51,861 bases of DNA from Candidatus Hydrothermus pacificus (GCA_002011615.1 MTOH01000012.1:35304-87164), one strand, 5' to 3'; shown: positions 4,124 to 23,614, counted from the stretch's first letter. The notes: generated by a model not told the origin, from the sequence alone. A program made the numbers and translations.

Positions 4124-5647
4124 ATGATGTTTAAAAATAGAAGTTTTTTGATATTTCCGGGATTAATGATTGCGTTTTCAATTTCAACCCCGCAGGCGAC
4201 AACCTATTATGTTTCTGTAAACGGAAATGATAACTGGCCAGGCACAAGTCCTGATTCTGCGTGGAGACATATTAATCATGCTTGTTCACTTGTTACCGCA
4301 GGGGATACAGTTCTGGTTCTTGAAGGTATGTATGAGGAAAGGGTGGTTTTGCAAAATTCGGGCACACCGGGTAATATGATAGTGTTTAAATCCGAGCCCA
4401 GGAGAACTGCAACCACATGGGGGTTTGATACGAATTCACCGGATAAGGGAAGTTATGTAAGAATTGAGGGTTTTAATATTGCATGGGATACAACTCTTAC
4501 GGGATGGCGTGATTTCGGAATTTTTATCAACAGCAATAATGTGGAGATTGTTGATAATTATATTTCTTACTGGCGTAAAACCGGGATTGTGGGATACTGG
4601 GGAGGTGAACCCAGGAATATTTATATTGCCGACAATAAAATCTTCCATTCTCAATCAGGAATATGGGTAAACGGAAAAAACTGGCTGATTGAGAATAATG
4701 AGATTGAGCGTCTTTATGATTACGGTAACGGTGATTGTGATTATACGAGATTCTTCGGCGACAGTATAACTTTTTATGGTAATTACTTTCATGGAACAGA
4801 CCCCGATTCTATTGGTTCGGCTCATGTTGATTGTTTCCAGACTTTTGATAATAACGGAGAACATGCTGCCTATGTTGTAATTGAAGCAAACAGGGGTTTT
4901 GACTTTCATCAGGGATTTATGGGAGAGGCTCACTATTATCACAATTCCCATGATATTGTTTTTAAAAACAATATTTTTGCACGTGGCTGGTCATGGGGTT
5001 TATGTGTTCAGGATATTTCAGATGTAAGAGTATTGAATAATACATTTGCGGATATTCAATGGCACGGAGTAGGATTTCAGGGACAATATGCTCAGGGTGG
5101 AGTGGTTATAAACAATATCTTCTACAACACAAATACAAGTTACTGGTGGTCCGATTCCGCACAGGCAACAGGCGATTATAATTTGATTTTCGGAGCAAGC
5201 CCTCCAACACAGACAGGTCCTCATGATATACTGAATCAGGACCCTCAGTTTGTTGACCCGGGTAATTATGACTATCGCCTGCAACCTGCTTCACCTGCGA
5301 TTGATAGCGGTGATTCACTTCTTGAAGTTCCCTATGATATAGTGGGAATTCCCAGACCCCAGGGGATGAGATGGGATATAGGAGCCTATGAATATGTTTC
5401 TCCGGGAATTAAGGAAAGCCACAAAAAAGTGGTAAAGCCTTCCGGAAAATTCAAGCTTGGTATAAATCCCTTCATAAATTCAGCAAGAATAAAGGGAATA
5501 AAGAATAAAAAAATTATTATTTATGACCTTTCTGGACGCAAGATAAAAACTTGCAAGAGCAATTTTATCGGCAAGGGTTTGAAATCCGGAATTTATTTTA
5601 TAAAGGTAGAAAATGCAGGATTTTTTGAGATTATAAAGATTGAGTAA
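4124..5647 (+). CDS. Secreted right-handed beta-helix protein with C-terminal sorting-like domain
   Basis: About 507 residues from ATG 4124, chosen over the in-frame ATG 4103 because AAAGGAGG (4111-4118) sits six bases before it. A signal peptide (MMFKNRSFLIFPGLMIAF...) is followed by a DUF1565-like opening ('YYVSVNGNDNWPGTS') and many Asn-rich turns ('NNVEIVDNYIS', 'NNIFARG', 'NNTFADI') spaced like parallel beta-helix rungs, as in polysaccharide lyases and similar surface proteins. The last 70 residues contain 'IYDLSGRKIKT' and 'GIYFIKVENAG', a T9SS-type or related C-terminal domain. It is likely exported and carbohydrate-associated; no catalytic residues can be assigned by eye. Confidence 0.75.
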   Translation: MMFKNRSFLIFPGLMIAFSISTPQATTYYVSVNGNDNWPGTSPDSAWRHINHACSLVTAGDTVLVLEGMYEERVVLQNSGTPGNMIVFKSEPRRTATTWGFDTNSPDKGSYVRIEGFNIAWDTTLTGWRDFGIFINSNNVEIVDNYISYWRKTGIVGYWGGEPRNIYIADNKIFHSQSGIWVNGKNWLIENNEIERLYDYGNGDCDYTRFFGDSITFYGNYFHGTDPDSIGSAHVDCFQTFDNNGEHAAYVVIEANRGFDFHQGFMGEAHYYHNSHDIVFKNNIFARGWSWGLCVQDISDVRVLNNTFADIQWHGVGFQGQYAQGGVVINNIFYNTNTSYWWSDSAQATGDYNLIFGASPPTQTGPHDILNQDPQFVDPGNYDYRLQPASPAIDSGDSLLEVPYDIVGIPRPQGMRWDIGAYEYVSPGIKESHKKVVKPSGKFKLGINPFINSARIKGIKNKKIIIYDLSGRKIKTCKSNFIGKGLKSGIYFIKVENAGFFEIIKIE

Positions 5648-6860: not shown

Positions 6861-7753
6861 AGTTTTATCTCCATTTTAAATTCAGTCCTCCTGCCCTTTT
6901 TAATTTTTATCTTTTTATAATAAAATCTGTTTAAAAGGTAGTTCAGCCCATAATAGAAACTGAAATTTAAAATTTTTCTGTTTACGGATTTTAAAATTAA
7001 TCTTCTGTTTTCCTTTAAATATCTTATCTCATCAACTTTGCCGAAATCTTCGTTATACCACCATACCCAGAAAGGATAACCTAAATGCGGTAATTCTATT
7101 ATTTTTTTATCCTTTTTAATTCTTAAAAAATATTTATAAATTTCACCACCTGTAAAAATGTTTATTTCAAAAAAGGGATAAAATTCCTTTTCTTTTTTTG
7201 ATTCTAAAACAAATGAAAAAGATAATTTGTTTTTATTCAATTCAATTATTTTCTCAAAAATAAAATCCTTTTCTTTCTTTTTACCATAAAATCTTTTCTT
7301 TGTAATTTTAAATTCAACTTTTTTCTCATAAAGATTTTTCTCAAAAATTCCCTGAGATATGCCACAGTTTGTGCTTTTCCCGTGAATATAAACAAAGTTA
7401 CTCAAAAACCATTCAAAATTTTTTCTTTTATCCAAAAGGGAATCAATCCTCCCACCCTTTTCAGGGTCAATCAAAATTTTCATGTATTCATTCTCCAAAA
7501 CTGCGTAATACTTCCCTTTTTCAGGAATAAAAATAGTGTTTTTCTTTTTTCTAATTTTTTTATAAAGAAATTTATGAGATATCTTCTCATCAAGTGCGAT
7601 TAATTCGCCTTCTTGATAGCCCTTTATATTTTCGATTAAGATTTTTTTATTTTTTATTTTCTTAAAATAGCCGGTATTTTCCGGAAAGACGTCAAGAGGG
7701 ATAAACTCCGCCTTTTTTTCCTTTATTTTATTTATTTTCCCTATAATTCGCAT
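6857..7753 (-). CDS. Uncharacterised beta-rich protein, mutarotase/glycosidase-like fold suspected
   Basis: A very basic 298-residue cytosolic protein with no signal peptide. The segment 'YAVLENEYMKILIDPEKGGRIDSLLDKR' (about residues 83-110; quoted here only as a position guide) resembles the start of the galactose-mutarotase-like domain of some glycoside hydrolases. Long amphipathic strands and 'PHLGYPFWVWW' follow. I do not see catalytic residues. Its stop overlaps the start of the GCS2-like ligase by ATGA, so the two are translationally coupled. A canonical promoter lies nine bases before ATG 7753, implying a near-leaderless mRNA. Function unknown. Confidence 0.6.
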   Translation of the reverse strand: MRIIGKINKIKEKKAEFIPLDVFPENTGYFKKIKNKKILIENIKGYQEGELIALDEKISHKFLYKKIRKKKNTIFIPEKGKYYAVLENEYMKILIDPEKGGRIDSLLDKRKNFEWFLSNFVYIHGKSTNCGISQGIFEKNLYEKKVEFKITKKRFYGKKKEKDFIFEKIIELNKNKLSFSFVLESKKEKEFYPFFEINIFTGGEIYKYFLRIKKDKKIIELPHLGYPFWVWWYNEDFGKVDEIRYLKENRRLILKSVNRKILNFSFYYGLNYLLNRFYYKKIKIKKGRRTEFKMEIKL

Positions 7754-17306: not shown

Positions 17307-18293
17307 TTAATAAAGTATAATTCTTTTGATTTTTTTGTAGTTATTTATCTTCGCAGAGATAAAATATATTCCAGGAGGGCACTTTTTTATATCCTCCCAT
17401 AGCATTGTATGTTTTCCTCTTTCAAAATGTCCGTTTTCAACGAGAGTTTTTACAATCCCGCCGTTTGAATTTAAAATTTTCAAAGTTATACAGGCAGGTA
17501 TATCAAGATAAAAGGAAATATGGAGAGAATTTTCACCTCTGTAAACATTATTTTTACAAAGTACTCTAAAACCATTTTTCAATTCTTCCTGAATATTCAC
17601 AAGAGGGGGAAATTCAACATTTTTGATAACAACTTCAACTTCCTCCCCGTTTGAGGGTGGATTTCCCTGATAGAGCCAAAGATTGATGTGAATCCTCAAA
17701 TTTTCCTCTTTTGAAGGTATATCATTGCCCGTATATGTCCATTGATGAATTAAAAACCCTGGATTCGGTGGCTCTGGATAATGCCCGTGAATACTTTTAA
17801 AGATTATATAATTTTGCTCCCAACCTATATAATGAGTAGTGTAGGTTCCGTTCAAACTCATAAAAAATCTTTCCACATTCCCCGGATGATACCATGGCTG
17901 GACAACATACTGAGAATTAAACCATGAATTTTCGTTTCCCCATTTTGAAAATTCTATATCAACTTCGGTTGTATCATTTGAATATAAAAATGGTGCGAAA
18001 ACTATATTTTTATCAAGACTATCAAGTCTTGAGATTATGTAAAATCTATGTATACCGTATTGGGTAAACCCTTCTGTATACACTTCTGAACAGTACCAGA
18101 TTCCGTTTTCATATCTTATTTTCAAATGAAGCCATCCGTTTGAATCCACCCACACATTTTGCTCACTATCGGACCAGTAATTTGGACCCGGCCCACCATA
18201 ACCTGTTTTAACATACCATGTTATTCCGGCAAAATTTATAGTGCGTGAGAAAGAAGTAGAATAAAGCAAAAGCAATACCCATAAAGTTCTCAT
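17307..18293 (-). CDS. Secreted GH16-like family protein with FlgD/sorting-like C-terminus
   Basis: A 328-residue protein with a signal peptide (about residues 1-16). Residues about 18-230 resemble the GH16-like jelly roll: Trp/Tyr-rich strands and the motif Glu110-Val-Asp112-Ile-Glu114, matching the GH16 ExDxE catalytic signature (nucleophile, assisting Asp, acid/base). The predicted activity is endo-hydrolysis or transfer on a beta-glucan or galactan; the substrate cannot be read. The last 85 residues ('ITLKILNSNGGIVKTLVENG' ... 'PPGIYFISAKI') match the FlgD-type Ig/C-terminal sorting module. It lies just after a terminator that follows the Asp-box gene, so read-through may co-express them. 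Confidence 0.7.
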   Translation of the reverse strand: MRTLWVLLLLYSTSFSRTINFAGITWYVKTGYGGPGPNYWSDSEQNVWVDSNGWLHLKIRYENGIWYCSEVYTEGFTQYGIHRFYIISRLDSLDKNIVFAPFLYSNDTTEVDIEFSKWGNENSWFNSQYVVQPWYHPGNVERFFMSLNGTYTTHYIGWEQNYIIFKSIHGHYPEPPNPGFLIHQWTYTGNDIPSKEENLRIHINLWLYQGNPPSNGEEVEVVIKNVEFPPLVNIQEELKNGFRVLCKNNVYRGENSLHISFYLDIPACITLKILNSNGGIVKTLVENGHFERGKHTMLWEDIKKCPPGIYFISAKINNYKKIKRIILY

Positions 18294-18301
18294 AGAATAT
18301 G

Positions 18302-18345
18302 AAAAAAAAGCCTCCCCGGAATTGAACCGTAAGGAAGGCTTTTTT
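18302..18345 (-). terminator. Rho-independent terminator of the Asp-box gene
   Basis: On the minus strand AAGCCTTCC pairs with GGGGAGGCTT (nine pairs including one G-U) around a loop of about 14 bases, followed by eight Ts. It begins five bases after the stop codon. Confidence 0.85.
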
Positions 18346-18350
18346 GATAG

Positions 18351-19829
18351 TTATTTTATAAAAATAACTTTCTGTTTCCGAGTTTTTTCTTTATCTTTTA
18401 AGTTAAGGAAATATATTCCTGTTTTTGGGCTTAATCCCTTGATTTTTCTTCCATTAAGGCTGTAAACGGATAAATTTCCCCTATCTTTTAAGAAGCTAAG
18501 CCACTTTGATGTAATTGAAGGTAGTGTGAAGTCTTTAGGATGTTTGAATGAGAGTTTTTCTTTGATATCCACCATGTTGCCGTCCTCACAATCTCCATAA
18601 ATATCTGTTGAACTCCGTGAATCTTTCCATGCTACAATTGCGTAATTTGCATGAGTTGGGTCCTCTACCACAGCTGGTCTATCCGAAACTCCATAACCAC
18701 CGTCACTTACTTGAACAAAATCAGAAGCGGAAAAGTTTGAAATATCAAAAGACCAAGCATAGTAGACATCTCCGTCATTATCTGAATACACTATCATCCA
18801 CATTCCACCTGGGGTGACATCTATAGCAGGATATTCCACCACATCAGGAGGATTTATGGTGTATCTATTCCATGAAGAACCATAATTAAAGGAGTAAATT
18901 ATTTCCAAGTCCGAACCGTTTACAGCCACTATTCCAACTTCACCCGAATGTATCGCAATATCAGGATAGGATAAATTATTCCATGTGTATGTACTGCTCC
19001 AATGCGCTCCAGAACCTGAAGAAAGTCTACATTGAATTGCCTCGTATGTATTTTTGATCCAGACCGCACCAACTCTAAGGTAATTTGTTGGATCTGATGC
19101 AATCCTTGGCATCCAGTAATAATTCGCATCAGGCCAGCCCCCAACTAATGTGGTTCTATTCCAGTTCTGTCCCCCATTTTTTGTCTTATAAAATCTTATA
19201 TCACAATCGGTTGAAGTATACCTATATTGAGCAACTGCATAAAAATCATCTCCAGTTGACGATCTACAAGCAACATCAGGAGTAACCACAGGAGACTGGG
19301 CATCTAACAAGTAATAAGTTCCATTACTTAAACCTGGTATATCATGTATGAAACTGTAAGAAGAATAATAATTTGAACCAGACCTTGTATCACACACTAA
19401 CATCAATTTAGAAGAAGTGGCTGCAATTGCAGGAAAATAGATAGTATAAGTGGTGTGGTACCATCCTACACCTGAACTATATGCAAGCCTTAGTTCACTT
19501 CCGCTCCGAGAAAGTTTCCACTCTCTAACATAAACTTCCATATTAGATAAACCGGTTTCTGTGCATACATATAAATAGTTACCTGCATCTCTCACTGCTA
19601 AACCAGGATGTCCACATCCACTTTTTTCCGTTAAATTAACATCATTACCAAATTTTATAGATATAGTGTCAGATTTTATTTCAAAAAATCCAATTTGTGG
19701 GAGATCTTCAGGTAGTATAAGTACTGTATCACCATTTTCATTTATATAGTAGTTGGAAGGTTCAAATTTCAACACTTCTTGGGCATATATGAGACTTGCC
19801 CCACATACCATTAAAAACATTTTCCTCAT
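18351..19829 (-). CDS. Secreted Asp-box/sialidase-like repeat protein with C-terminal sorting-like domain
   Basis: A 492-residue protein starting with a signal peptide (MRKMFLMVCGASLIYAQ). The body contains repeated propeller-like segments with Asp-box-type motifs ('KNGGQNWNRTTL', 'YGSSWNRYTI', 'ASDPTNYLRVGAVW', 'VVEDPTHANYAIVAW'), as in BNR/sialidase-fold proteins; no sialidase arginine triad is obvious. The last 50 residues ('LSVYSLNGRKIKG', 'TGIYFLNLKD') form the C-terminal export-type module. It has a strong SD (GGAGG) and, upstream, a structured leader, a perfect sigma-54 promoter and activator-like palindromes. It is therefore probably the main target of the two-component pair encoded upstream at 20269-23614. 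Confidence 0.75.
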   Translation of the reverse strand: MRKMFLMVCGASLIYAQEVLKFEPSNYYINENGDTVLILPEDLPQIGFFEIKSDTISIKFGNDVNLTEKSGCGHPGLAVRDAGNYLYVCTETGLSNMEVYVREWKLSRSGSELRLAYSSGVGWYHTTYTIYFPAIAATSSKLMLVCDTRSGSNYYSSYSFIHDIPGLSNGTYYLLDAQSPVVTPDVACRSSTGDDFYAVAQYRYTSTDCDIRFYKTKNGGQNWNRTTLVGGWPDANYYWMPRIASDPTNYLRVGAVWIKNTYEAIQCRLSSGSGAHWSSTYTWNNLSYPDIAIHSGEVGIVAVNGSDLEIIYSFNYGSSWNRYTINPPDVVEYPAIDVTPGGMWMIVYSDNDGDVYYAWSFDISNFSASDFVQVSDGGYGVSDRPAVVEDPTHANYAIVAWKDSRSSTDIYGDCEDGNMVDIKEKLSFKHPKDFTLPSITSKWLSFLKDRGNLSVYSLNGRKIKGLSPKTGIYFLNLKDKEKTRKQKVIFIK

Positions 19830-19841
19830 TTTTCACCTCCT

Positions 19842-19898
19842 CCCACCCCTGCGCACCAAGAGGGCGGGTTTTTCTCGTTTTTCGGGTCGGTGCCACCC
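19842..19898 (-). promoter_or_regulatory. Structured, GC-rich leader with two hairpins and complementary loops
   Basis: On the minus strand hairpin 1 is GGGU-loop-ACCC wait-free stem (bases 19898-19884) with GCACC in its loop. Hairpin 2 is a 7-bp stem CCCGCCC/GGGUGGG (19868-19862 with 19848-19842) whose 13-base loop holds GGUGC (19857-19853). The loops are perfectly complementary over five bases, so a kissing interaction or pseudoknot can form. Hairpin 2 ends one base before the AGGAGG SD, so the fold could control SD access. It is a GC-rich island in AT-rich DNA. I do not recognise a known riboswitch. Confidence 0.5.
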
Positions 19899-19925
19899 AT
19901 TCATTTTCTTCATATTTATTTTATA

Positions 19926-19941
19926 TGCAAAATTTGTGCCA
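19926..19941 (-). promoter_or_regulatory. Sigma-54 (-24/-12) promoter
   Basis: The minus strand reads TGGCACAAATTTTGCA, a perfect match to the RpoN consensus TGGCAC-N5-TTGCA with GG and GC exactly placed. The predicted start is near 19915, giving a leader of about 85 bases to ATG 19829 that includes the two-hairpin element. Confidence 0.8.
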
Positions 19942-19954
19942 GAATTTTAAAATT

Positions 19955-20051
19955 ATTGAAAATCAATGAAATTTGAAAGAGAATATTTTTCAAAGTGTAA
20001 CAAAAATGTTATAATATTTTTTAAAAGTTAAATAAGTTGTTGAAAATCAAT
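19955..20051. repeat. Pair of 12-bp direct repeats, each an inverted repeat
   Basis: TTGAAAATCAAT occurs at 19956-19967 and 20040-20051, 84 bases apart. The first copy extends to ATTGA-AAA-TCAAT, a perfect palindrome; the second is GTTGA-AAA-TCAAT. They flank one of the other palindromes upstream of the sigma-54 promoter and may bind a second regulator or DNA-bending protein. Confidence 0.5.
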
Positions 20052-20100
20052 AATTTTCTTGGTGTGGCAAAAATGTTATATGTGTAATAAAAATGTTACA
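19996..20100. promoter_or_regulatory. Three copies of an 18-bp palindrome: probable upstream activator sites
   Basis: TGTAACAAAAATGTTATA (19996-20013), TGTGGCAAAAATGTTATA (20063-20080) and TGTAATAAAAATGTTACA (20083-20100) share the form TGTAACA-N4-TGTTACA. The last two start exactly 20 bases apart, close to two helical turns. Their centres are about 90, 157 and 177 bases upstream of the predicted sigma-54 start, the range used by NtrC-family activators. The adjacent regulator (20269-21612) is the obvious candidate ligand. Confidence 0.65.
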
Positions 20101-20110
20101 TATAATTTTT

Positions 20111-20230
20111 TCAATCCCTCTGTATCTTTTTCAAATTTCCTGAGTGGAGAACTTCACCAAGAAACAATCCACCTTTGTACCCTTTTAAACCCTTAGATGG
20201 GGGCTTCTCCAAGGAGAAATTGCAGAGCAT
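20111..20230 (-). other. 39-codon ORF in the gap after the regulator gene
   Basis: On the minus strand ATG (20230) to TGA (20111) encodes 39 residues with a plausible composition ('KGYKGGLFLGEVLHSGN'). There is no SD. A TTCTCC-TT-GGAGAA hairpin lies at its beginning. It may be a small gene, a remnant or chance. Otherwise the 439-base gap 19830-20268 holds the regulatory sites listed separately. Confidence 0.2.
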
Positions 20231-20268
20231 TCTTAAAGATTTTTAAAATATTCCTCTCAAAATTGTAT

Positions 20269-21612
20269 TTACTTTTTCTTTATCTCCTTTAAAAGTCTTT
20301 GCAGTTGAACCCTGTGGATTCCGAGTTTTTTTGCAGTAAGGGTTATATTTCCTCCGTTTTCTTCAAGACATTTTAATATATAATCTTTTTTGAATTCTTC
20401 AAGAGCAATTTTAAGGGGTTTTGTAACTGAAACATCATATATTTTGGTTACATTTAAATTTTCAATTGCCAGTTTTATATCGTTTACTGTTATTATATTT
20501 CCTCTTTCCTTTGTTATCACAATTTTTTCTATGATGTTTTTAAGTTCCCTTACATTTCCAGGAAAAGGATAATCTATAAGATATTTTAATGCAGATTCTG
20601 AAAATTCATAATAGGGTTTGTTATTCTCTTCGCAAAATTTTCTGAGATAATAAATTGCTATAGGTTCTATATCTTCTTTTCTTTCCCTGAGCGGGGGGAT
20701 ATTAAGTTTCAAAACATTCAACCTGTAATAGAGGTCCTCTCTGAAATTTCCTTTACTTATTTCCTTTTCTATGTTTTTATTGGTTGCTGAAATTATCCGA
20801 ATATCCACCTTTATATCTTTTTCCGCTCCTAAGGGAAATATTTCTTTATTTTCAATTGCGTCAAGGATTTTTGCCTGAAGTTCTTTCGACATTTCACATA
20901 TTTCATTTAAAAGCAATGAACCTTTATCCGCAAGTTCAAACTTTCCCTTTTTATCCCTGTGTGCACCCGTGAATGCCCCTTTTTTGAATCCGAAAAGCTC
21001 GCTTTCAAGTAAATCTTTTGGTATTGAAGCACAATTTATGTATTCAAAAGGGAAACTTCTCCTATCACTCATATAATGCAAAAGTCTTGCAACCACATCC
21101 TTACCAACTCCTGTTTCACCTGTTATCAAAACAGGTGAAGAGGATTTTGAAAAGGTTTCTATCTTTTTAATAATTTCCTTATAAATATTTGACTTTCCTA
21201 CAAAAGGGATTTCCCTTTTTATTTCCTGAGTTAATCTTTCAATTATTTTTTCTTTTTCAACTCTGTTAAGTATGTTATCGGTTACAATTCTAATTTTTTC
21301 TTTGTTTAAAGGTTTTTCCAAAAAGTCATAGGCACCGATTTTTATTGCTTTAACCGCAAGTTCCGTAGTTCCATATCCTGTGATGATGCAAACAGGTATT
21401 TTCTTTTCTTTCATTATTTCCTGCAGAAATTCCATTCCATCGCCATCGGGAAGTTTGAGGTCAAGAAAGATAAGATCAAAATTTTCTTTTTCTATTTTAT
21501 TCCTTGCACTTTTTATTGTTTCCAAAAAATCCAGGGAAAAATTTTTTTCAAGGGTTTCAAGAAAAAGATACCTTATTTTCGGTTCATCATCCACAACAAG
21601 TATTTTTTTCAT
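20269..21612 (-). CDS. NtrC-family sigma-54-dependent response regulator
   Basis: A 447-residue regulator. The receiver domain (1-115) has the acidic pair DD (8-9), phosphoacceptor Asp51 ('FLDLKLPDG') and Lys98 ('FLEKPL'). The central AAA+ domain has Walker A 'GETGVGKD' (165-172), the sigma-54-contacting 'GAFTGA' (212-217), sensor 'IISATNK' and arginine fingers in 'FREDLYYRLN'. The Walker B segment reads 'SLLLNEI', with Asn236 where Asp is usual. The C-terminus is a Fis-type helix-turn-helix ('NITLTAKKLGIHRVQLQRLL'). It begins one base after the kinase stop codon, so the pair is one operon. It probably drives the sigma-54 promoter at 19926-19941. Confidence 0.9.
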   Translation of the reverse strand: MKKILVVDDEPKIRYLFLETLEKNFSLDFLETIKSARNKIEKENFDLIFLDLKLPDGDGMEFLQEIMKEKKIPVCIITGYGTTELAVKAIKIGAYDFLEKPLNKEKIRIVTDNILNRVEKEKIIERLTQEIKREIPFVGKSNIYKEIIKKIETFSKSSSPVLITGETGVGKDVVARLLHYMSDRRSFPFEYINCASIPKDLLESELFGFKKGAFTGAHRDKKGKFELADKGSLLLNEICEMSKELQAKILDAIENKEIFPLGAEKDIKVDIRIISATNKNIEKEISKGNFREDLYYRLNVLKLNIPPLRERKEDIEPIAIYYLRKFCEENNKPYYEFSESALKYLIDYPFPGNVRELKNIIEKIVITKERGNIITVNDIKLAIENLNVTKIYDVSVTKPLKIALEEFKKDYILKCLEENGGNITLTAKKLGIHRVQLQRLLKEIKKK

Positions 21613-21613
21613 A

Positions 21614-23614
21614 TCATTTATAGAGCAATTTTATAAATACCGCTGTTCCTATTCCCTTTTTTGATTTTATCTTTATTTCACCGTTCATTTTTCCAATTAT
21701 ATACTTTGAAAAATAAAGTCCGAGTCCCATATGTTCCTCTCTTGTGGTAAAGAAAGGTTCAAAAGTTTTGTTCAAAAACTTTTCTTCAATACCCTTACCC
21801 GTGTCCTTTATTTCTATCTCAATAAATTTTTTATGGGGTTCTCTTAAAATTCTTGTGCCTACATAAATTTTTCCATTATCCGTGAATTGGACAGCATTTT
21901 CAATTATGTTTTTTATACACATTTCAAACTCGGTTCTGTTTGCCTTTATTTCAGGTAATTCTTTTTCCATTTTTATATCCCATTCTATATCTTCTTTTAT
22001 TTTCTTAAACCTTTCAACAATCTCGCTGATAATTTTGTTTATGTTTATTTTTTCTGGTTTGCTCTTATGAAGTTTTAAAAAATCGGTCAGAGAAGCGAGG
22101 GTTTCATAAATTCTTGTAATTTCTTTTGAAATTTCCTCACCAAATTTCTTTTTCTCTATTTGTAATCTCATAAAGGAAATTGAGTTTTTTACCTCGTGAA
22201 TGAACTCGTAGATTAAGTTTATTAACATTTGTTCTTTTAAGGAGGTCTTATAAGGAGGTTTTGATGTTTTCCTTGCAATTAAAAACCCTGAATAAAAGGA
22301 AAGAAATAGGAAAATAATTCCTAAAAAGGTGTATATGGGAAAAGGATTTATTCTTTTTTGCTTTTCAAAATCAAGAATTAAAAACCTTTCCTTTGTCCAT
22401 AAAGGAATTAAGTATTTCCCTTCATTTTTACAGAGTCTATAAAGAGGAAAATTATAGAAGGTAAAACTTTCGATATCTCTTTCTCCAATTTTTTCAAAAT
22501 TTAAATTCAGTATATACAATTTTCCTTCCCTCTCGGTTATTATTTCATAATTTCCGTCACCATCAAGATCTATTATCCTGCAGAGTTTGCCTGAATATTC
22601 GTTCTCTATTACTTTTATTTTTTCAAGATTCTGATTAAATACAATTATTTTATTTTTTGAAGTTGAAACTATAATTTCCTTCTTTGTGTCCCTATTTATA
22701 TCAAAAAAGGAAAATCCTGTAAAAATAAGGGGCAATTCTATTTCCTTTATAATTTTTCCTTTTTTTCCGTCCACACACACTATTTTCTTTTTTTCTCCTG
22801 ACTCTCTTGAGCCCTGTATTTCAACTGCAAATATCTTTTTATCTTTACTTATCTCTGCTCTTATATGAGAGCCGAATCCCCCGATTTCCCTTTTCCATAT
22901 TAAATTTCCGTTTAAATCAACAAGATAGAGATAAGAGGTGCAATCATTTTCATCCCTTATTAAAGCTCCATTACAGGGGGCAGATGTTGAAATCAGTATT
23001 TCATCTTTTCCATCACCATTCATATCGGTTACTTCCCAGTCATTTACTGGAGGTCCAATCCACAGTTTCCATTTAATCTTTTTTTCTTTAACATTAAAAC
23101 AGAAGATCCCTCTGGGATACATGTCAAAACCTGTGGTTATGAAGAAGATTATGTCTTTTAACTCTCTGTTTTTATAAAGAGGATAAAGTCCGTAGGGAAG
23201 AATCCCCCCATCCCACCCTTTGGGCAATACTGTATCTTTAACCTCAAAAAGTGGATATAACCAGCCCCTTGAATCCATAAGATTGTAGATGAATAAATAC
23301 AATTTATCTTTTCTTAAAGCCCAGAAGATTGCCTCATCATTTCCTGTTCCATCAATGTTTGCCATTCCAACAAAACCAGCCCTATCTCCCATTGGATTAA
23401 CCTGTGCAACGACATTACCGTTCTGTTCATAAATTATAAAACAGTCTTTATCGTGATACTTTGCTTTTCTTATAACCTCATCCTTTCCATCCCTGTTATA
23501 ATCTAAGAAAAGGGGATATGAAAGGGAAGGGAGTTCAAGAAGAGGTTTTAATTCAAATTCAGTTTTTAAAAGGAAGGAAAACAGAATAAAAATTCCTGTA
23601 AAAACACTATTCAT
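21614..23614 (-). CDS. Sensor histidine kinase with periplasmic FG-GAP/VCBS-type propeller
   Basis: A 666-residue protein. A hydrophobic N-terminus (6-16) is followed by a periplasmic sensor with FG-GAP calcium-loop repeats: 'DYNRDGKDEVI' (38-48), 'DMNGDGKDEIL' (197-207) and 'DLDGDGNYEII' (349-359), each with the D-x-D/N-x-D/N-G pattern. One membrane helix (about 426-447) leads to a HisKA-like helix with 'HEVKN' (His473), then a HATPase with N-box 'NIIENAVQF', G1 'DTGKGI' and 'HMGLGLYFSKYI'. It should phosphorylate the regulator encoded next. An extracytoplasmic propeller on a kinase suggests sensing a surface polymer or envelope state, which is inference. Confidence 0.88.
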   Translation of the reverse strand: MNSVFTGIFILFSFLLKTEFELKPLLELPSLSYPLFLDYNRDGKDEVIRKAKYHDKDCFIIYEQNGNVVAQVNPMGDRAGFVGMANIDGTGNDEAIFWALRKDKLYLFIYNLMDSRGWLYPLFEVKDTVLPKGWDGGILPYGLYPLYKNRELKDIIFFITTGFDMYPRGIFCFNVKEKKIKWKLWIGPPVNDWEVTDMNGDGKDEILISTSAPCNGALIRDENDCTSYLYLVDLNGNLIWKREIGGFGSHIRAEISKDKKIFAVEIQGSRESGEKKKIVCVDGKKGKIIKEIELPLIFTGFSFFDINRDTKKEIIVSTSKNKIIVFNQNLEKIKVIENEYSGKLCRIIDLDGDGNYEIITEREGKLYILNLNFEKIGERDIESFTFYNFPLYRLCKNEGKYLIPLWTKERFLILDFEKQKRINPFPIYTFLGIIFLFLSFYSGFLIARKTSKPPYKTSLKEQMLINLIYEFIHEVKNSISFMRLQIEKKKFGEEISKEITRIYETLASLTDFLKLHKSKPEKININKIISEIVERFKKIKEDIEWDIKMEKELPEIKANRTEFEMCIKNIIENAVQFTDNGKIYVGTRILREPHKKFIEIEIKDTGKGIEEKFLNKTFEPFFTTREEHMGLGLYFSKYIIGKMNGEIKIKSKKGIGTAVFIKLLYK

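Follow-up and report, generated by a model that had tools for sequence, protein, structure and literature searches.

The window, a stretch of 51,861 nucleotides (nt) from Candidatus Hydrothermus pacificus (GCA_002011615.1 MTOH01000012.1:35304-87164), contains around positions 18302-23614 a sensor kinase gene, an activator gene and, downstream of them, a gene for an exported protein. The host is an uncultured bacterium of candidate division WOR-3, a phylum known mainly from metagenomes. We consider it likely that this region is a two-gate expression unit for the one exported protein, in which sigma-54 transcription is combined with a structured leader RNA of about 57 nt in the 5' untranslated region (UTR). 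The leader RNA was recognized by comparison among relatives and forms a new class among the cis-acting leader RNAs, a kind already known. An earlier reading of the stretch (the original prediction) had proposed a self-contained sigma-54 regulon. The transcriptional part of that proposal stands, but the proposal overlooks this conserved leader, the most unusual element of the region.

The sigma-54 control region

The control region and the two regulatory genes comprise the following features:

21614-23614, minus strand: membrane sensor histidine kinase, 666 amino acids (aa); Pfam HATPase_c 1e-17, FG-GAP 9.6e-7
20269-21612, minus strand: NtrC-type response regulator, 447 aa; Pfam Response_reg 2.6e-25, Sigma54_activat 1.4e-64, HTH_8 4.8e-10
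20083-20100, no strand assigned: predicted operator palindrome 1, TGTAATAAAAATGTTACA; 1 mismatch to TGTAACA-N4-TGTTACA; position kept in G004
20063-20080, no strand assigned: predicted operator palindrome 2 (weak), TGTGGCAAAAATGTTATA; 3 mismatches; position kept in G004
19996-20013, no strand assigned: predicted operator palindrome 3, TGTAACAAAAATGTTATA; 1 mismatch to TGTAACA-N4-TGTTACA; position kept in G004
19926-19941, minus strand: sigma-54 -24/-12 promoter, TGGCACAAATTTTGCA; pattern match; exact promoter also in the WOR-3 genomes G004, G067, G131, G140 and G143

The -24/-12 element (19941-19926 on the minus strand) has 0 mismatches and is intergenic, with the activator gene on one side and the gene at 18351-19829 on the other. 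It had originally been called a perfect RpoN promoter, and rpoN is indeed present on the same contig, 35 kb away (PF04552, 6.4e-43). With the element placed upstream of a gene and rpoN in the genome, we assign it as a predicted sigma-54 promoter. Sigma-54 transcripts start 12 nt after the GC of the -12 element, and from the promoter position a transcript start is expected near 19915. When the 2.06-Mb genome to which the window belongs (G000) was searched for TGGCACN5TTGCW, two exact matches were found, as opposed to none for the reversed pattern, and the other exact copy is intragenic, within a 583-aa open reading frame (ORF). The promoter is thus essentially unique. Allowing up to one mismatch gave 55 sites, 45 of which were inspected; 43 of these 45 fall in ORFs, the exceptions being the window promoter and C3:43096. 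The genome encodes seven strong sigma-54 activators. One sigma-54 activator domain (G000:C17:1159-1665) is found within a 1627-aa open frame, unusually long for the family.

Three palindromes, two of them 20 bases apart, had been reported upstream of the promoter. All three are present, starting 55, 122 and 142 nt from it, and the starts at 20063 and 20083 are exactly 20 base pairs (bp) apart, the copy at 20063-20080 being weak. In the genome, TGTAAYA-N4-TRTTACA with at most one mismatch occurs at five places, two in the window and the other three within ORFs. We take the palindromes as predicted operators, to which the NtrC-type regulator would bind.

The kinase is laid out as a signal peptide, an FG-GAP propeller-like sensor, one transmembrane segment near residue 430-450 and an HATPase_c domain. 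The ATPase domain, together with a phosphoacceptor His region (FIHEVKNS, an H-box-like string seen by eye, with no HisKA match), argues for a sensor histidine kinase. The FG-GAP sensor proposed originally is borne out, but in place of three calcium-loop repeats there are at least four DxDxDG-like loops. The activator, for which the GAFTGA motif had also been noted correctly, combines a receiver, an AAA+ domain containing GAFTGA and a Fis-type helix-turn-helix (HTH), as expected of an NtrC-type enhancer-binding protein. The NCBIfam equivalog cut-offs are far from being reached. The FG-GAP sensor family lies outside the NCBIfam equivalogs, and the two-component sigma-54 part is otherwise of a known type. 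It resembles AtoS-AtoC, ZraS-ZraR and NtrB-NtrC in its one-operon kinase and NtrC-type activator with a GAFTGA AAA+ domain and Fis-type HTH, and in its palindromes and -24/-12 promoter. It differs from them in the FG-GAP propeller sensor, seen here in WOR-3, the single exported target and the structured leader.

The original layout, with a kinase/NtrC-type pair adjoining one sigma-54 promoter with three operators, recurs in G004, a WOR-3 genome of the same order. The regulator there is 70% identical to that of the window (67% in the orthologue of G059) and the kinase 33%; G004 likewise has an exact promoter, with three palindromes starting at distances of 52, 120 and 140 nt. The gene downstream in G004 is another one, whose lipoprotein-like product contains a bacterial Ig domain, and thus the control region was kept while the target is different.

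Related loci show some variation. In G002 (L096:9532-12809), a kinase of the same family and its regulator are broken by stops or frameshifts and the promoter is absent, which reflects decay or an assembly error. In G046 (L098:10206-10447), a small ORF that encodes a Fis-type HTH on its own lies upstream of the kinase/regulator pair and is preceded by an exact sigma-54 promoter. In G040 (L097:8007), such a promoter stands immediately 5' of the kinase gene, which suggests that the system there is autoregulated.

A conserved structured RNA in the 5' UTR

The sequence that separates the promoter from the start codon is rich in GC and has conserved counterparts in G004 and G067. The elements of the leader, all on the minus strand, are:

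19842-19898: structured leader RNA (5' UTR, about 57 nt); matched by covariance model R2 at 19898-19845 with 41.8 bits; supported by covariation
19898-19895 with 19887-19884: leader P1
19883-19869: leader linker
19868-19861 with 19849-19842: leader P2
19893-19889 (GCACC) with 19857-19853 (GGTGC): leader pseudoknot, a loop-loop pairing
19836-19841: Shine-Dalgarno (SD) sequence AGGAGG, directly 3' of P2; same layout in 41 of 42 copies

A pattern drawn from the window, G004 and G067 matched four of the 147 genomes of the phylum, the fourth being G131, and its control matched none. In all four, the element follows an exact sigma-54 promoter and adjoins both an exported-protein gene and an FG-GAP kinase/NtrC pair. 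In a GTDB pattern scan, the rest of the motif was present, among the 117 matches listed, only in the G004 and G131 stretches. A covariance model built from four sequences (R1) revealed many further copies. A later model, R2, used 32 sequences. Across the 390 genomes searched with it, all matches of at least 30 bits are in WOR-3; the 243 genomes of other phyla gave no convincing copy, only weak matches lacking the pseudoknot or the context. In total, 25 genomes yielded 42 copies that were aligned; with two weaker copies at kinase loci (in G140 and at a second G143 locus), this gives about 44 copies across 26 of the 147 WOR-3 genomes. A viral contig that also matched was rejected as coding sequence. 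A divergent copy in G011 (L343:7051-7102), with a GAAACC loop and a compensated GGTGT, is found beside a CRISPR-array-like region and has no clear downstream gene. The copies of the window and of G131, as well as 20 copy-carrying loci, were compared with the 4227 Rfam covariance models, none of which matched. Among open-licence papers, we found neither a description of this RNA nor work on riboswitches, RNA motifs, sigma-54 or type IX secretion in WOR-3.

In the consensus, the four base pairs of hairpin P1 (NGGY/RCCN) close the loop GGCACCG(A), the centre of the linker is most often GACGA, and hairpin P2, which varies in length, carries the loop NGGTGCN. The loop and linker nucleotides are conserved beyond the structure. 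The 42 copies were aligned so as to fit the R2 structure (A5). Standard pairs make up 93.0% of the pair cells in this alignment, and double-change cells number 117, as compared to 42.0 (standard deviation 5.6) after shuffling and at most 25 in slid controls. The covariation score is 0.476, against 0.177 when shuffled (standard deviation 0.015; reached in 0 of 500). A further alignment (A4), made without structure, gave the same outcome, although its inputs had been trimmed by a P2 search, so that the P2 counts lean somewhat towards this hairpin. The outermost P1 pair, which was not part of the R1 structure, occurs in CG, UA, AU, GC and GU variants. These compensatory changes, together with the fixed 5' UTR position before unrelated genes, point to a structured cis-regulatory RNA.

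Two other identities for parts of the leader were considered and rejected: a second sigma-54 element in P1 (TGGCACCG), which lacks a -12 partner and whose pairs covary as RNA, and an attenuator, as no T-run follows P2.

A ribosome-binding site and start codon follow 41 of the 42 copies, the SD usually standing 4-18 nt past the model end; in the window, it begins at the next base after P2. The N-termini encoded downstream look exported in 31 of 42 cases, compared to 137 of 325 (42%) control ORFs taken from the loci that carry the copies (p=1.2e-4); export was called by a hydrophobicity rule applied to N-termini. The downstream proteins are otherwise unrelated and include a matrixin-like peptidase, Kelch proteins, a lactonase-like propeller with PEGA, and Ig, FlgD_ig and Por_Secre_tail domains; in relatives, some RNA-linked proteins carry a sorting domain above cut-off. 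Several copies may be found in one genome, and genes in tandem often have one leader copy each. Exceptions to export include three cytoplasmic-looking genes of G005 and, in one family, ORFs of 42-44 aa. The G005 copies (L348:9606-10464 and L358:3744) would represent a non-secretion use of the leader, and two of the three proteins end alike in ARKFRRED. In the family with short ORFs (f9; L349, L353-L356), near-identical RNA copies from five genomes precede a conserved 42-44-aa ORF (VASVAAYSAQVGKSGCRGRPET).

Association of the leader RNA with sigma-54 systems

Of the copies, fifteen have an FG-GAP kinase/NtrC pair within 9 kb on the same strand. A promoter scoring at least 13 was found upstream of 11 of these 15, as opposed to 2 of the 26 others (p=2.6e-5), and at the 11 copies the distance from promoter to RNA is 43-96 nt and once 399 nt. 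Copies that were outside the R2 training set (G143 at 5267 and 10013, G144 at 7029, and G140) are likewise found beside a kinase, 80-81 nt after a sigma-54 promoter. The sensor of the window kinase is common to 13 WOR-3 kinases, and the alignment of this family (A6) has 28 matches in 23 of the 147 genomes; 12 of these 28 loci carry the RNA. As some copies have neither kinase nor promoter, the RNA should be considered a general WOR-3 leader that is often used by these sigma-54 systems. One of the two promoter-bearing copies without a kinase, in G059, adjoins another sigma-54 activator. At this locus (L347:2917-7934), the RNA follows a sigma-54 promoter with one mismatch and its neighbours are a sigma-54 activator-like protein and a 1079-aa Ser/Thr-kinase-like protein. 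With no FG-GAP kinase pair, the locus suggests a different input to the same leader.

The downstream proteins of the window

Three features follow the leader:

18351-19829, minus strand: target gene, exported 492-aa protein; signal-peptide-like N terminus, Asp-box-like repeats, C-terminal sorting-tail-like end
18303-18345, minus strand: terminator-like inverted repeat after the target gene; seen by eye, absent from the terminator scan list
17307-18293, minus strand: exported 328-aa protein with an ExDxE string; weak Por_Secre_tail match (0.0018), below cut-off

The target had been described as a secreted Asp-box protein. It has an exported look, but the Asp-box-like strings (SFNYGSSW and TKNGGQNW) were recognized by eye only, and searches found no Pfam family and no usable PDB relative by sequence. 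As a possible type IX secretion cargo, it shows no C-terminal sorting domain above cut-off. The terminator proposed after the gene is visible as an inverted repeat, which the terminator scan did not report. The gene at 17307-18293, beyond this apparent terminator, is probably a separate unit. Its reading as a GH16-like enzyme had relied solely on the ExDxE string EVDIEF, and is favoured neither by the Pfam scan, in which GH16 did not appear, nor by the PDB sequence search, which returned no relative. Single-sequence structure prediction of both proteins yielded unusable models, with mean pLDDT (predicted local distance difference test) values of 30.6 and 35.0. The original suggestion that surface-polymer sensing controls a carbohydrate-active pair is therefore unsupported, as the 492-aa protein has no relatives and the 328-aa protein has no GH16 match and lies beyond the terminator-like repeat; no enzymatic family could be assigned to either. 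The downstream proteins of relatives, being unrelated secreted proteins or lipoproteins, do not favour a carbohydrate-active target either.

Discussion

In the mechanism that we propose, the kinase, a membrane protein bearing an extracytoplasmic FG-GAP propeller, would sense some state outside the cytoplasm and phosphorylate the adjacent NtrC-type regulator, which would then bind the three upstream palindromes and open the sigma-54 promoter at 19926-19941. The resulting transcript would begin with two hairpins joined by a loop-loop pseudoknot, the second hairpin ending at the SD. The leader probably acts on translation; most likely it controls the access of ribosomes, with a bound small molecule or protein as the signal. 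Comparison among genomes establishes the promoter, the operators, the two regulatory genes and the fold, position and associations of the RNA, and from these we infer the phosphotransfer, the binding to operators, the effect on translation and any ligand.

How the leader might do so can be read in several ways. It may be a riboswitch proper, in which a small metabolite or second messenger would bind the pseudoknot and the GACGA linker and thereby switch the translation of surface proteins. The compact pseudoknot, the conserved unpaired linker (GACGA in the majority) and the position at the SD agree with this, as do the many unrelated downstream genes under one element and the several copies per genome in tandem genes; as the gene content suggests no ligand and no alternative expression-platform fold was seen, we regard a riboswitch as possible, though short of probable. 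A binding site for an RNA-binding protein, be it a translational repressor or an mRNA-handling factor for exported proteins, would explain why loop and linker sequence is conserved beyond structure and why the element is common to many export genes, but no candidate protein emerged and the distribution is patchy (26 of 147 genomes), making such a site somewhat unlikely. Stable hairpins immediately 5' of strong SDs would also suit an element without regulation that boosts the expression of abundant secreted proteins through stability or ribosome standby. This we also consider somewhat unlikely, as the conserved loop and linker nucleotides and the retained pseudoknot exceed the needs of a generic stabilizer.

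Two further explanations question the elements themselves. Chance occurrence of the promoter and palindromes in an operon driven by sigma-70 is very improbable: sigma-70-like hexamers abound in this AT-rich sequence as they do in its shuffled versions, but the exact sigma-54 promoter is nearly unique in the genome, its layout with the operators is kept in G004, and it recurs at kinase loci in other genera. It is about as improbable that the conservation stems from a leader peptide or other coding sequence rather than from RNA structure. Short mechanical ORFs do overlap some copies, but pairing is kept by compensatory changes and the copies differ by single nucleotides in loop and linker length, which shifts the frame, and a leader peptide was rejected for this reason.

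Several points that weigh against the two-gate unit with its structured leader should be considered. The alignments were in part adjusted to the structure. Pairing in the pseudoknot is retained in 98.5% of cells, but the pseudoknot is nearly invariant, the informative changes being one AU and two UG, so that its support is mostly conservation. Folding of single sequences recovers both P1 and P2 without guidance, but the energies are ordinary (z -0.4 to -1.7). The SD adjoins P2 rather than lying inside it, and a sequestration mechanism is thus not evident. Finally, 16 of the 28 kinase loci have no detected RNA, and the downstream genes have no common metabolic theme that would name a ligand. 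The fullest form of the proposal, namely a riboswitch class confined to WOR-3, with a kissing-loop pseudoknot at the SD, that double-gates exported or surface proteins together with sigma-54 systems bearing a new FG-GAP sensor, is put forward as tentative and rather doubtful.

Among known RNAs, the preQ1 riboswitch is a compact 5' UTR pseudoknot next to the ribosome-binding site (PMC11625349). The leader shares this arrangement with the preQ1, SAM-II and SAM/SAH translational riboswitches but differs in sequence and topology, having a two-hairpin loop-loop pairing, an SD outside the pseudoknot and no Rfam match. In the title and abstract of Francke et al. 2011 (PMC3162934), sigma-54 is presented as a controller of the bacterial exterior, and exported or surface proteins are likewise the predicted targets here; the claim made there concerns promoters and activators and includes no leader RNA.

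A leader of about 57 nt with strong covariation, outside Rfam and repeatedly found at sigma-54 two-component loci, offers a defined target to make and test. The recurrence of the leader before mostly exported proteins across the phylum points to a further layer of control over surface proteins, and the joining of enhancer-dependent transcription with RNA-level control on one message would be an unusual pairing. Should the leader prove to be a riboswitch, the identity of its ligand would reveal a signal by which WOR-3 bacteria control the secretion of surface proteins.

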